NCBI GenBank assembly: GCA_937891785.1
Contig: CALAGN010000040.1
Location: forward strand, 62,001-126,000
Direction of reading: 5' to 3'
DNA from: an uncultured Octadecabacter sp.
GTDB taxonomy: Bacteria > Pseudomonadota > Alphaproteobacteria > Rhodobacterales > Rhodobacteraceae
Length of the DNA stretch: 64,000 nucleotides
Shown here: positions 53,652-60,296 of the stretch, piece by piece
How the letters are laid out: each line of letters opens with the position of its first letter
Numbering within the stretch: the first letter of the stretch is position 1
Made by a program: the position numbers and the translations under genes
Notes under the pieces: generated by a model
What the model was told of the DNA's origin: nothing
The model's input: the letters and a program-made list of their open reading frames with translations, nothing else
The model's database searches: none

Positions 53652-53796
53652 GGCTATCTCCTTGGACACGTAAGATGAACCAGCTTGGTTAACAAATCTA
53701 TCAACGATATCTTCTGGCGTCCATCCTTGGGCGCAACAGTGCGTGCAGATTGCACAGATGCTTGACAGTAATGCGCGCGCAGGCCAACCCTGCGCC

Positions 53797-55245
53797 ATGT
53801 TTGATCTACGCCCCGTGGGATATGTTATTGGCTTGCTGGTATCGGCCCTTGGGGTGACGATGCTTGCGCCGCTTATTGCTGATCTGGCGGCGGGAAACGG
53901 GCATTGGCATGTGTTTCTGGAAAGTGCTGTTATCACTGTGCTTTGCGGCGTCTTTATCGCGCTGTCTTGTGCCAACGGCGTGTCATCTGGGCTAAATATC
54001 CGCCAGACGTTTATGTTGACGACACTGGTGTGGTTTACCTTGCCGCTGTTCGGCTCGCTCCCGTTTATGATCGGCGCGACCGAAGCAAATTTCACCGATG
54101 CCTTTTTCGAGGCGATGTCGGGCCTGACGACCACTGGATCGACCGTGCTGGTGGGGCTTGATCAACTGCCTGACGGGCTCAAGCTGTGGCGCGGCATCCT
54201 GCAGTGGCTTGGCGGGATCGGTATCATTGTTGTGGCGATGGTATTTTTGCCCGAATTGCGAGTCGGTGGGATGCAGATTTTCAAGTCTGAAGCCTTTGAT
54301 ACAATGGGAAAAATCCTGCCCCGTGCGACCGAGATTTCCAGCCGCATCTCCGTGATCTATGTGGGCATTACGCTGTCATGTGCGCTGGCTTATGCCGCGA
54401 CGGGCATGAATGCCTTTGACGCGATGGTTCATGCGATGACCACAGTTTCCACAGGCGGCATGGCCAACTACGACAATTCGTTCGGGCATTTCGGCGCTGG
54501 CGCACATTATGTGGCTTCGGTTTTCATGGTGCTTTCGGCGTTGCCCTTCGTGCGCTACGTGCAACTGATTTCCGGCACGGCGCAGCCGCTGTTTCTTGAC
54601 AGCCAGATCAGAGCCTTTCTGATCACCGTATCCGTGATCGTCCTAATTATGAGCCTGTTTTTGTGGCGCACCTTTCACGGGTTCGAGGAAATCGCCTTTC
54701 GCGAGTCATTGTTCAACGTTACGTCGATCATTAGCGGCACGGGATATGCCAGCGCGGACTATATGCAATGGGGATCATTTGCCGTCGTGATGTTCTTTTT
54801 CATTGGGTTGATTGGTGGCTGCGCCGGATCAACCAGCTGTTCGATCAAGATATTCCGCTATCAACTGCTGTTTGCATCCATCAAGGCGCAGGTGCGCAAA
54901 ATCCACTCGCCTCATGGGATATTCACGCCGCGCTATGCCGGACGGCCCGTGAGCGAGGATGTGTTGAATTCGGTCATGGCGTTTTTTGTCGCATTTCTGG
55001 TGTCGATGGGCGTGGTTGCGGTGCTTTTGGGCCTGACGGGGCTTGATTTCATCACCTCCGTTTCGGGCGCGGCCACGGCCCTTGCCAATGTCGGCCCCGG
55101 ATTGGGCAATGAAATCGGGCCGGCAGGTAATTTTGCGGGGCTGAACGACGCGGCAAAGTGGATATTGTCCATTGCGATGCTGGTCGGGCGGCTTGAAATT
55201 ATGGTTGTATTTACAATGCTTACTTGGCAATTCTGGAGAGTTTGA
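53797..55245 (+). CDS. trkH: TrkH-family potassium uptake membrane protein
   Basis: A 482-residue protein from ATG 53797; the track start at 53743 adds 18 residues. Four selectivity-filter-type repeats are visible: MSGLTTTGSTVLVG, TTVSTGGMANYD, ISGTGYAS and LANVGPGLG. Between them are paired membrane helices as in TrkH/KtrB. It imports K+ with TrkA, which is not in this window. The stop overlaps the start of the ThDP enzyme by one base (TGATG). Confidence 0.92.
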   Translation: MFDLRPVGYVIGLLVSALGVTMLAPLIADLAAGNGHWHVFLESAVITVLCGVFIALSCANGVSSGLNIRQTFMLTTLVWFTLPLFGSLPFMIGATEANFTDAFFEAMSGLTTTGSTVLVGLDQLPDGLKLWRGILQWLGGIGIIVVAMVFLPELRVGGMQIFKSEAFDTMGKILPRATEISSRISVIYVGITLSCALAYAATGMNAFDAMVHAMTTVSTGGMANYDNSFGHFGAGAHYVASVFMVLSALPFVRYVQLISGTAQPLFLDSQIRAFLITVSVIVLIMSLFLWRTFHGFEEIAFRESLFNVTSIISGTGYASADYMQWGSFAVVMFFFIGLIGGCAGSTSCSIKIFRYQLLFASIKAQVRKIHSPHGIFTPRYAGRPVSEDVLNSVMAFFVAFLVSMGVVAVLLGLTGLDFITSVSGAATALANVGPGLGNEIGPAGNFAGLNDAAKWILSIAMLVGRLEIMVVFTMLTWQFWRV

Positions 55246-56840
55246 TGCCTGAACGTCCCCCCACACGTCCTTTGGGTGCGCAAATCTCGCATATGCTGAA
55301 ATCTCGCGGTGTGGACGTCATTTTTGGTATTCCGGGTGTGCATAATCAGGAAATGTATCGTGGCATCCAAGAGGCTGGCATCACCCACGTTCTTGCGCGC
55401 CACGAACAAGGCGCGGGGTTCATGGCCGATGGCTATTCCCGCGCAACGGGGCGGCCCGGTGTAGCCTATGTGATCACGGGGCCGGGGTTGTGCAATACGA
55501 TGACGCCGCTGGGGCAGGCCTATTCCGATAGTGTGCCGGTTTTGGTGTTGTCGTCATGTCTGGGCGAAACGGCGGCCACACGCGGCCAGTTGCACCAGAT
55601 GAAAGACCAGGAAGGGGCCGCGCGCACCGTGTGTGACTGGTCTGAAACGGCGCGCACGGCAGATGCGGCCTATGCGTTGATTGATCGGGCCCTGTTGGAA
55701 TTCCAAAGCAAACGACCACGTCCGAAACATATCAGCGTGCCGATCCCGCTGCTTGAGGCGCGCGCGCAGGGCCATAATCCGGCACCATTACGAGATGCGC
55801 CCCTGCCATGCCCGTCGGCCCAGCAGGTTGATGCATTGGCCACGCAGGTGCGCTCGGCCAAACGTCCGCTGTTCATCTTTGGTGGTGGCGCGCGGGCGAT
55901 TGATTTCGCCGCGCCACTGCTGTCGCGCTGGCAGGCGGCAAGCATGACGACCTATGCTGGGCGCGGAATTGTGCCAGCGGATGCGCCGTTGCATTTCGGG
56001 GCTTGTCTTGCGCGTGGATCAAGTGCGGATGTCATCGCGCAGGCCGATCTGGTGATCGCCTTGGGCACCGAGCTGTCAGAGGTGGACCTGTGGCGCGACA
56101 AACTGGGCCATACCGGCACGTTGGTGCGCGTGGATATCGACGCCGAAGTTCTGGGTGACCGTCACCGGCCTGATGTGGCGATCTTTGGCGATTGCGCCGC
56201 ACTTTTGGCCGATCTGGGTGTGGCTGTGCCCGATGCGCTGGCAACTGATTGGGATGCCGGTGCAGTCGCGACACAATGCAAAAACTGGCGGGCTGAAATC
56301 ATGGTCGAACGCCCCGGCATTTTGCCCGTGGCCGATGCCCTGCGCGCCGCACTTCCAGACGATACGATGATCTATTCCGATATGACGCAGTTCGCCTACG
56401 CCGCCAAGGAAGTCTGGCCGATGAAGCGCGCAGGCCATTGGCACCACCCGTTCGGGTTTGGTACGCTGGGCTATGCGCTGCCTGCCGCGATTGGCGGGGC
56501 AGTGGCGCGCAAAGGGCTGCCCACTGTGGCGATTGCAGGGGACTACGGGTTCCAATTCACGGTGCAGGAACTGGGCGTGGCGGTGGAACTGGGCCTGCCC
56601 TTGCCGGTGATCGTCTGGGACAACGGCAAGCTGGGCGAGATCGAGGCCAGCATGGTTGGCGCACAGATCGCACCGAATGCAGTGATCCAGCGCAACCCGG
56701 ACTTCATTATGCTGGCCAAGGCTTATGGCGCTTATACAGCCGCGCCAAAATCACTGACCGACATGCAAGCGGCCGTGAAAAAAGCGCTGGCCGCGGATGG
56801 GCCAACGCTTATCCATGTCACTTCGGATATTGCCGGGTAG
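55245..56840 (+). CDS. Thiamine-diphosphate-dependent enzyme, AruI-like (acetolactate synthase fold)
   Basis: A 531-residue protein. VDVIFGIPGVHNQEMYRGIQ and VLARHEQGAGFMADGYSRAT are the N-terminal Pyr domain, with the catalytic Glu in RHEQGAGF. The C-terminal PP domain has TVAIAGDYGFQFTVQELGVA and WDNGKLGEIEAS. The N-terminus resembles AruI (5-guanidino-2-oxopentanoate decarboxylase of the arginine transaminase pathway) more than IlvB. The substrate is not proven. It begins at the trkH stop codon with GGAGAG upstream. Confidence 0.8.
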   Translation: MPERPPTRPLGAQISHMLKSRGVDVIFGIPGVHNQEMYRGIQEAGITHVLARHEQGAGFMADGYSRATGRPGVAYVITGPGLCNTMTPLGQAYSDSVPVLVLSSCLGETAATRGQLHQMKDQEGAARTVCDWSETARTADAAYALIDRALLEFQSKRPRPKHISVPIPLLEARAQGHNPAPLRDAPLPCPSAQQVDALATQVRSAKRPLFIFGGGARAIDFAAPLLSRWQAASMTTYAGRGIVPADAPLHFGACLARGSSADVIAQADLVIALGTELSEVDLWRDKLGHTGTLVRVDIDAEVLGDRHRPDVAIFGDCAALLADLGVAVPDALATDWDAGAVATQCKNWRAEIMVERPGILPVADALRAALPDDTMIYSDMTQFAYAAKEVWPMKRAGHWHHPFGFGTLGYALPAAIGGAVARKGLPTVAIAGDYGFQFTVQELGVAVELGLPLPVIVWDNGKLGEIEASMVGAQIAPNAVIQRNPDFIMLAKAYGAYTAAPKSLTDMQAAVKKALAADGPTLIHVTSDIAG

Positions 56841-56861: not shown

Positions 56862-58658
56862 CTAGTCGTCCCAGCAGCTTACCAGCACAGTCACGTCAGC
56901 GGCCATCAGGGTGATGATCTCGGGCGTCATATCGGCCACGCTATCCGTGGTTTGCACACTGATCTGCGCGCTTTGCAGCGAGGCAACGATCTGGTCCGCA
57001 TCCACGGAAAAGCTGACCTCGGGGGGAAGCACCTGTCCGTTGACCGAGGTCTTTGGCAATAGCATCCCCAAGACTGCGCCGCCGTTATCAAACACTGGCC
57101 CACCCGCGTCGCCGGGTTGGGTATAGATCGCAAGGCGCTTCACGTATTCTTCGCCGTTCAAACCGCGAATATCGGCCAGTGTGCCGAAGGTCAGGGACGG
57201 CGCTGGCAAGACACCCTCGTAGGGAAAGCCCGCAACGGCCACGTCAGATGTCAGACGTGGGACGCCAGATTGAAGTGCAGCAACCTGCGCGGGCGCAAGG
57301 GCCGTATCTGGCCGCAAGACTGCGATGCCAAGTGCATCATCGCGGTGGACGACTGTCGCCGCGTGTTCGGCGTTGATGGTGATCGACGCACATTCATCAA
57401 CGGCTTCGATGGTGGTCAACACATCACCGCGCGCGTCGATGAAAAAGCCAGACCGCGCAAGGCGTGGCTTGCGAATTTGTAGTCCCGCGATCATGTCAAT
57501 CGCCTGATCTTCACCCGGCACTGAAATCGCAGGATCTAGAACACCCTCGACCGCGTTAAAGCTGGCTTTCATTTCGGTTAGAATGCGGGAGCGGCGTTCT
57601 TCGTCGCCCGCAGGCCAGATCAGCGAAAAGCCTTTAATCTGCCCATCTTGCAACTGTGCAAAGGTGTATGACGCAATATCATCGTCTGTGCCGTTTATTT
57701 CGAACGAACGGTCGCTGCGGCTGCGGTCGCCTTCCTTCGGGATAATCGCAAGGGTTTGCAAGATTTCATAAAGGCCAAACAGACGCGTTTGATCGCCTTC
57801 TTGGGAAATCAGCAAGACCTGTGCGTCAACGTCACCACTGGCATCAAATCGCGCAAAGGGTGGTTCGTATTCGCTAAACGAGACGACACCCGTGGGGATA
57901 ATAAGTTCGATCCCGCTGGCATCATCACGCACCAGTTGCAGGCCCATACCATCCAGCACGGCATTATAAGCACCCAGCAGTTCGCTCCGCTGCATCGTGG
58001 TCAACACGCCAGTTGCCTCGTGGTCATTGCTCTCTTGCCATGCAGACATGGCCGCGCGAGTGCCACCACCATACGATCCGTCAATGGCTGCGGCGTAGAA
58101 TCCAGCCCATTGCATGGCCACCTGCAACAGCTTCTTTTCGTCCCCATCAAGCGCGGCTTCGCTCGCGCGGGCCTCGCGCACTGTCTCGTCAGGGACGGGA
58201 ATAGGATCGGGCACGATCACAGGGTCGCTTGCGGCAACGACTTCTGGTGTGGGTTCGGCTATTTCTTGCCCTTGGGTGACTGTTTCAGTGTCGCCTGCGT
58301 TATCATTCGCAATCGGCTGCGCAGTTGTTGCTGCGCCCACGCCGATTGGCCAGAATTGCTGCTGGAACCGCCCGGCATCAGCGATAAAGCTGTCACTCGG
58401 AATTGTGCCGGCACTGCGAAGGTCGCGCAGCACTATTTCACCATCCTCGGGGGTGTATGGGCCAAGCGCGATGCCATACCAGCCCGAGCCAAGATAATAG
58501 CCATTCACGTTATCGACTGCGCCTGCATAGGCGCGCACTCGTTCTTGGGCGCCACTCAGTGTCGGCAAAGCCTCGATCTGCACCCAAACGATGTCTTGCG
58601 CATAAGCGCTACTTGAAATGAATGTCGTGAATAGCAGTGCTGAAAGTGCCGTTCTCAT
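56862..58658 (-). CDS. Secreted peptidoglycan-binding, trypsin-fold protein with degenerate catalytic residues
   Basis: A 598-residue protein. A signal peptide (ALLFTTFISSSAYA) and an N-terminal SPOR-like part (VWVQIEALPTLSGAQERVRA) are followed at about residues 175-235 by a PG_binding_1 unit (LLQVAMQWAGFYAAAIDGSY, RAAMSAWQES). From about residue 400 there is a trypsin-like fold. The usual VLTxxHV position reads VLTTIEAVDEC, and the serine site is QPGDAGGPVFDN where GNSGGPV is expected, so both the catalytic His and Ser appear lost. DDALGIAVL keeps the Asp region. A peptidoglycan-associated pseudoprotease is the inference. Confidence 0.8.
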   Translation of the reverse strand: MRTALSALLFTTFISSSAYAQDIVWVQIEALPTLSGAQERVRAYAGAVDNVNGYYLGSGWYGIALGPYTPEDGEIVLRDLRSAGTIPSDSFIADAGRFQQQFWPIGVGAATTAQPIANDNAGDTETVTQGQEIAEPTPEVVAASDPVIVPDPIPVPDETVREARASEAALDGDEKKLLQVAMQWAGFYAAAIDGSYGGGTRAAMSAWQESNDHEATGVLTTMQRSELLGAYNAVLDGMGLQLVRDDASGIELIIPTGVVSFSEYEPPFARFDASGDVDAQVLLISQEGDQTRLFGLYEILQTLAIIPKEGDRSRSDRSFEINGTDDDIASYTFAQLQDGQIKGFSLIWPAGDEERRSRILTEMKASFNAVEGVLDPAISVPGEDQAIDMIAGLQIRKPRLARSGFFIDARGDVLTTIEAVDECASITINAEHAATVVHRDDALGIAVLRPDTALAPAQVAALQSGVPRLTSDVAVAGFPYEGVLPAPSLTFGTLADIRGLNGEEYVKRLAIYTQPGDAGGPVFDNGGAVLGMLLPKTSVNGQVLPPEVSFSVDADQIVASLQSAQISVQTTDSVADMTPEIITLMAADVTVLVSCWDD

Positions 58659-58845: not shown

Positions 58846-59766
58846 ATGGTCGATAAACCACGCAGTTTCCAAGAGATCATTTTACGGCTGCAAACCTATT
58901 GGGCTGCCAAGGGCTGCGCGATCCTGCAACCCTATGACATGGAAGTAGGGGCAGGGACGTTTCACCCGGCCACAACTCTGCGGTCCTTGGGCTCCAAGCC
59001 CTGGGCCGCCGCCTATGTGCAGCCCTCGCGCCGCCCTACCGACGGGCGTTACGGTGAAAACCCGAACCGCTTGCAGCACTACTATCAGTTTCAAGTGTTG
59101 ATTAAACCCAGCCCGCCGGATTTGCAGGACCTGTATCTTGGGTCTTTGCAGGCAATCGGGATCGACGCCTTGATCCATGATATCCGGTTTGTCGAAGACG
59201 ACTGGGAAAGCCCGACGCTTGGCGCATCAGGGCTTGGCTGGGAAGTCTGGTGCGACGGCATGGAGGTCAGCCAGTTCACATATTTCCAACAGGTCTGCGG
59301 GCACGATTGCCATCCGGTATCGGGCGAGCTGACCTATGGTCTGGAACGCTTGGCGATGTATGTGTTGGGCGTGGATCACGTGATGGATATGCCATTCAAT
59401 GATCCCGACGCGCCGATTGCCTTGAAATACGGCGATGTCTTTTTGCAAACCGAACAGGAGTACGCGCGCTGGAATTTCGATGTGGCCGATACCGACACGC
59501 TATTGCGCCACTTTGAAGATGCCGAGGCCGAGTGTCAGCGCATCATCGACACACCCGCCCAAGATCCCAAGACCGGCATGCGGATCATCATGGCGCATCC
59601 CGCCTATGACCAATGCATCAAGGCATCACATTTGTTTAACCTTCTGGACGCACGCGGCGTGATCTCGGTGACAGAACGCCAAGCCTATATCGGGCGGGTG
59701 CGCACGCTCGCCAAGCTTTGCGCTGATGCATTCGTTCAAACCCAAGCAGGCGGAGCAGCAGCATGA
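58846..59766 (+). CDS. glyQ: Glycyl-tRNA synthetase alpha subunit
   Basis: A 306-residue protein. [40 protein letters not shown] and [20 protein letters not shown] are the invariant GlyQ N-terminus, and [20 protein letters not shown] follows. It forms the alpha2beta2 glycyl-tRNA synthetase with GlyS. The ATG is preceded by GAGGGCGG. A DUF6446 gene overlaps its stop. About 190 bases upstream hold no other gene, and I see no glycine riboswitch there. Confidence 0.96.
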
Positions 59767-60296
59767 CCCAAGTCCGTATCGCAATTGTAGGAATTCTCAT
59801 GTCTGCTTTGATCGCTGGCGTCGCCCTCTATTACCTTCAGATCTATGCTTACTATGACGAAGTCACAGCCGAGCAAGTTGGAGAAGTGCAGCTTACGTCG
59901 GTAGTATCCGGCGAATCCGAACCAATACTGTTCGAAAACTTCAAAGCGATTGATAGTGATAGCAGCCCAATCCGGTTTCGCGCTTGCTTTGACACGCCGC
60001 TTTCGCAGGCCATGCTGAGCGAAACCTACACGGTGCTGAGCGAAGCCGAACCGCTGGTCGCACCGGCATGGTTTGATTGCTTTGACGCCCGCGAAATCGG
60101 TGAAGCACTGGAAGATGGTGATGCGATTGCCTTTATGGGCGTCGAAAACATCACCTACGGCATCGACCGGATCGTCGCGATCATGTCTGACGGCCGTGGC
60201 TTTTCGTGGCACCAGATTAACGCATGTGGCGAAACGGTTTTTGACGGTAATCCCGCGCCTGAATCCTGTCCACCTGCACCGGAAAGGGTCCAATAA
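59763..60296 (+). CDS. DUF6446-type membrane-anchored protein between glyQ and glyS
   Basis: A 177-residue protein with one N-terminal membrane span ([20 protein letters not shown]) and a periplasmic domain with several cysteines ([40 protein letters not shown]). It corresponds to what I recall of the Rhodobacteraceae DUF6446 family, encoded inside the glyQS operon. Its ATG overlaps the glyQ stop and its stop overlaps the glyS ATG. No function is known, and a structural role in the synthetase seems unlikely because it is membrane-anchored. Confidence 0.85.

Follow-up and report, generated by a model that had tools for sequence, protein, structure and literature searches.

What can a protein with the fold of trypsin do once the residues that make trypsin an enzyme are gone? 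The question is raised by an open reading frame of an uncultured Octadecabacter sp., which lies at 56862..58658 (minus strand, ATG start, stop codon included) of the 64,000-nucleotide stretch analyzed here, referred to as the window, and encodes 598 amino acids. All features of the protein given below are on that strand. Its N terminus reads by eye as a signal peptide (residues 1-21, 58596..58658; predicted as MRTALSALLFTTFISSSAYA, with Q as the next residue), and residues 2-21 form a helix in the structural model. Residues 22-108 (58335..58595) are assigned to a SPOR-like domain. Such a region had been proposed in an earlier note on this DNA, and the proposal holds in part: Pfam recognizes SPOR in 22 of 28 orthologues (best E 1.7e-7), and the beta-alpha-beta-beta-alpha-beta order of residues 24-94 in the model fits SPOR, but the window protein itself is under the Pfam threshold and unmatched at E 0.1. 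PG_binding_1 follows at residues 172-221 (57996..58145; Pfam E 2e-7, 31.4 bits against a cut-off of 23). Of the note's further readings of this part, the PG_binding_1 region stands, the signal peptide is likely as judged by eye, and an association with the cell wall is supported by the domain set (PG_binding_1, and SPOR in the 22 orthologues), which points to the peptidoglycan layer.

The remainder of the protein comprises two folded units. The middle one, at approximately residues 238-368 (57555..57947), is PsbP/Mog1-like. Modeled on its own it reached a pLDDT of 92.8, and Foldseek matched it to PsbP at E 2e-5 with a TM score of just 0.50-0.58; weaker fold matches were to DcrB, LpqN, and type VI secretion adaptor and immunity proteins, and a profile search against PDB sequences gave nothing significant. 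Several of these proteins are binders of other proteins. The second unit, at residues 393-598 (56865..57482), is a trypsin-fold domain with a C-terminal tail. Trypsin_2 (PF13365) was matched by Pfam at residues 403-532 (E 2e-16, 61.4 bits against a gathering cut-off of 27.6), as it was in all 28 orthologues scanned. Its fold is that of chymotrypsin and HtrA, with DegS as the best Foldseek match (E 1e-9) and MarP lower (E 9e-9), and TM scores by target length of up to 0.73. By sequence, the nearest relatives of solved structure are MarP of Mycobacterium tuberculosis (E 1e-9, with the S343A mutant on top) and then HtrA proteins, while against the NCBIfam model of the MarP family (NF033740) the protein scored 33.6 bits, under the curated cut-off of 250. 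The AlphaFold model of the full-length protein had a mean pLDDT of 86 and a pTM of 0.52, so that single domains are confidently predicted and their mutual arrangement is not.

All three positions of the catalytic triad are substituted in this domain. We mapped them by alignment to MarP, to orthologues, and to relatives with an active triad. In MarP the triad is His235/Asp264/Ser343 (PMC6628586). His235 falls on Glu418 (codon at 57405..57407), Asp264 on Gly444 (57327..57329), and Ser343 on Ala518 (57105..57107). Residues 417-420 form a short helix in the model, which matches the location of the catalytic His in trypsins. The earlier note had claimed the loss of His and Ser, and both losses are borne out by these alignments; it had missed that of the Asp. 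Among 150 distinct orthologues, the His position holds Glu in 99, Asp in 19, Ala in 12, Gln in 10, and His in 1; the Asp position holds Gly in 144 and Asp in 2; and the Ser position holds Ala in 110, Val in 17, Thr in 8, Ser in 5, and Trp in 4, Glu-Gly-Ala being the commonest letters. No orthologue carries more than one triad residue. The note had asked whether the substitutions are fixed in relatives and had named a GNSGGPV motif in an orthologue as evidence to the contrary: none of the 150 has the triad, GNSGGPV is absent among them, and the five that read GDSGGPV each lack both His and Asp. The loop around the former Ser is otherwise retained, with G516, D517, G519, G520, and P521 conserved at 95-99% and Gly444 at 96%. 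Cys423 (57390..57392) and Cys595 (56874..56876), which from their conservation may form a disulfide, are invariant among the sequences with a residue at these positions, and are common to the active relatives as well.

Active relatives place this loss in an evolutionary context. They were found in Rhodobacteraceae and in other alphaproteobacterial families, and all 26 relatives outside the orthologous group have His-Asp-Ser intact, against none of the 150 orthologues, a contrast beyond chance. Nearly all of the 26 have the Cys pair, and for some the similarity to the window family is confined to the trypsin domain and tail. Seven active relatives, aligned against the window family by hhalign, gave E 6e-39 along the PG-binding-like, middle, and trypsin regions. 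A tree computed without the triad columns places a single branch (SH-aLRT 99) between the 64 dead and the 26 active sequences, although it is an unrooted, quick-search tree with some very long branches (L029, L158, L028), which limit its weight. The descent of the pseudo-trypsin domain from an active protease, which the earlier note had suggested, is supported by these comparisons. They are also consistent with one triad loss in a common ancestor, before the family radiated. Because several families have active forms, a loss on the Rhodobacteraceae branch would be the simpler reading, with the position of the root inferred. Pfam recognized neither PG_binding nor SPOR in the two active relatives scanned; as SPOR was unrecognized in both, it was probably gained in the pseudoprotease lineage.

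The resulting family is widespread and occupies a fixed place. Matches at E 1e-10 were present in 385 of 395 genomes, which were drawn at order level and all belong to one family, Rhodobacteraceae, and strong matches (best E < 1e-90) were counted by hand in 349 of the 395. Genomes outside the family, from a class-level sample, gave only matches of E ~1e-25 to 1e-34, confined to the trypsin domain and tail. The tRNA-synthetase gene glyQ (58846..59766, plus strand, by Pfam), which lies outside the protein, sits upstream in divergent orientation at 155 of the 158 loci read, and the other neighbors are DUF6446, glyS, TrkH, and a TPP enzyme, with no protease gene tied to the locus. In the window, the DUF6446 frame (59763-60296, plus strand) lies between glyQ and glyS, and it is near the locus in 122 of the 158 loci. 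As called, the TrkH and TPP-enzyme frames (53743-55245 and 55224-56840, plus strand) have 22 bases in common, and the second has a TTG start that is probably in the wrong place.

There are departures from this pattern. In three loci read from one genus (L161-L163), the relatives have two SPOR-like regions, the PG-binding domain, and the middle domain without the trypsin domain; adjacency to glyQ was directly read for L163. Another relative (L160) stops after the middle domain at 388 amino acids, and two genomes of the same genus retain the trypsin domain. The domain is thus not required everywhere and can be lost. In a further genome (L157), the orthologue is apparently split into two frames of ~281 and ~351 amino acids, as by a frameshift or a sequencing error. 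Median dN/dS values (Nei-Gojobori, 30 pairs) were 0.08 for SPOR, 0.14 for PG_binding, 0.09 for the middle domain, and 0.11 for the pseudo-trypsin domain, and mean column identity was 56-58% for the SPOR, middle, and trypsin parts. The dead trypsin domain is maintained like the other domains and is not decaying. Judged from its sequence and those of its orthologues, the protein is a pseudoprotease, in that it has a protease fold, the triad is gone across the whole orthologous group, and purifying selection acts on it.

As to what such a protein does, we moderately favor the reading that it is a periplasmic, peptidoglycan-tethered pseudoprotease whose dead trypsin domain lets it act on an envelope enzyme as an adaptor or allosteric regulator, without cutting. 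The ancestor would have been an active trypsin-fold protease with PG-binding-like and PsbP-like regions, of which the copy beside glyQ would have lost all three triad residues in the Rhodobacteraceae ancestor. SPOR and PG_binding_1 would dock the protein onto peptidoglycan, probably at the division site, where peptides are stripped from glycan strands. SPOR domains are known to bind denuded septal glycans (PMC6895207), and the putative septal localization follows from this domain, which is below the Pfam threshold in the window protein. With catalysis lost and the loop of the cleft kept, the trypsin domain is most simply read as a binding module; it is probably that and not an enzyme. Its glycine-rich former active-site loop, still intact, would bind a peptide or protein partner without cleaving it, and the protein would thereby act on an envelope enzyme. 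A scaffold, one of the two roles that the earlier note had offered, appears the likeliest function and a plausible one. A bolder version, in which a near-universal peptidoglycan-bound pseudoprotease of Rhodobacteraceae uses its former active site to sense a peptide signal and so controls septal cell-wall remodeling, strikes us as speculative and decidedly improbable. As to essentiality, the gene did not turn up, under the terms used, in the main text of a Tn-seq paper on Rhodobacter sphaeroides (PMC5513736). The SPOR protein named in an outer-membrane-vesicle proteome (PMC7901474) was considered as a counterpart of the window protein and set aside.

The alternative that survives best is that the activity of a DegP-like protease, or of an active relative, is tuned by the dead domain, which would either pair with that protein or vie for its substrates. 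MamO sets a precedent, being required for proteolysis by MamE with its own active site unused (PMC4794232), and the source genome has three further Trypsin_2 proteins, one of them DegP-like, all with intact triads and none with the window architecture. However, a close active paralogue is absent from the source genome and present in only about 4 of 28 sampled genomes, and the locus neighbors give no tie to a protease; we consider this alternative unlikely, though a serious one. The same scarcity of a paralogue led us to reject a general role as inhibitor of an active sister protein, and the inhibitor named in the earlier note gained no positive support, though proteases of the DegP type occur and could be its targets. 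Possible partners that are left are DegP and a cell-wall enzyme.

A somewhat less probable alternative treats the trypsin domain as a structural spacer or stabilizer with no binding role of its own, so that function would reside in SPOR, PG_binding_1, and the PsbP-like domain. The relatives at the locus that lack the domain, together with L160, favor such a spacer, as does the PsbP-like domain, which is as conserved as the others, but the trypsin domain is kept in most of the family under strong purifying selection, with a loop as conserved as that described above. It is very improbable that the protein is still an enzyme acting through other residues. Its conserved fold and loop, an invariant Thr415, and two Cys might suggest this, but no conserved residue at or near position 518 in the 150 orthologues could replace the nucleophile, and the active relatives have Thr415 and both Cys too, without using them for catalysis. 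A decaying gene, to which the lost triad, the split copy, and the shortened copy could point, is scarcely credible and is ruled out by near-universal distribution in Rhodobacteraceae, a fixed locus, and a dN/dS of ~0.1.

Compared with known systems, the preferred reading of a non-cutting, peptidoglycan-bound pseudoprotease has partial counterparts. MamO of Magnetospirillum is likewise an inactive alphaproteobacterial protein of trypsin/HtrA fold that derives from an active protease and is retained for a non-catalytic role, but it keeps His and Asp, has Thr in place of Ser, carries a TauE domain, and binds metal, with a surface di-histidine site (PMC4794232). The window protein, in contrast, has lost all three triad residues, has SPOR-like, PG_binding_1, and PsbP-like domains, and has no Pfam match to TauE. 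CspC of Clostridioides difficile has a fold of the subtilisin type, and its sequence is unrelated to that of the window protein. It is a spore protein, comparable as a bacterial pseudoprotease with a regulatory role, in germination (PMC6636752). Of the proteins with solved structures, MarP (Rv3671c) is the closest in sequence to the trypsin domain. It is an envelope protease acting on a peptidoglycan hydrolase (PMC6628586), but it is active and is anchored by transmembrane helices.

While bacterial pseudoproteases are already known, we found no description, in the open-access papers searched, of a SPOR and trypsin-like protein in Rhodobacteraceae or of a matching pseudoprotease, and judged from these papers the window architecture and family appear undescribed. 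Rhodobacteraceae are a major family of marine and environmental bacteria, and nearly all of them carry this protein, which by its Pfam match would nevertheless be annotated as a trypsin-like peptidase. With its triad lost once, long ago, and its sequence conserved ever since, it would be a clear and testable case of a cell-envelope pseudoenzyme, with active relatives for comparison. These alphaproteobacterial relatives (L171, L030, L172, L179, L180, and others) share its PG-binding-like, PsbP-like, and trypsin regions, its Cys pair, and its C-terminal tail; they differ in their intact His-Asp-Ser, in the lack of a recognized SPOR in the two scanned, and in their occurrence in few genomes. In another active relative (L178), Sel1-like repeats, seen by eye, lie ahead of a PG-binding-like region and an intact trypsin domain with a tail that reads FTVLIECWE.
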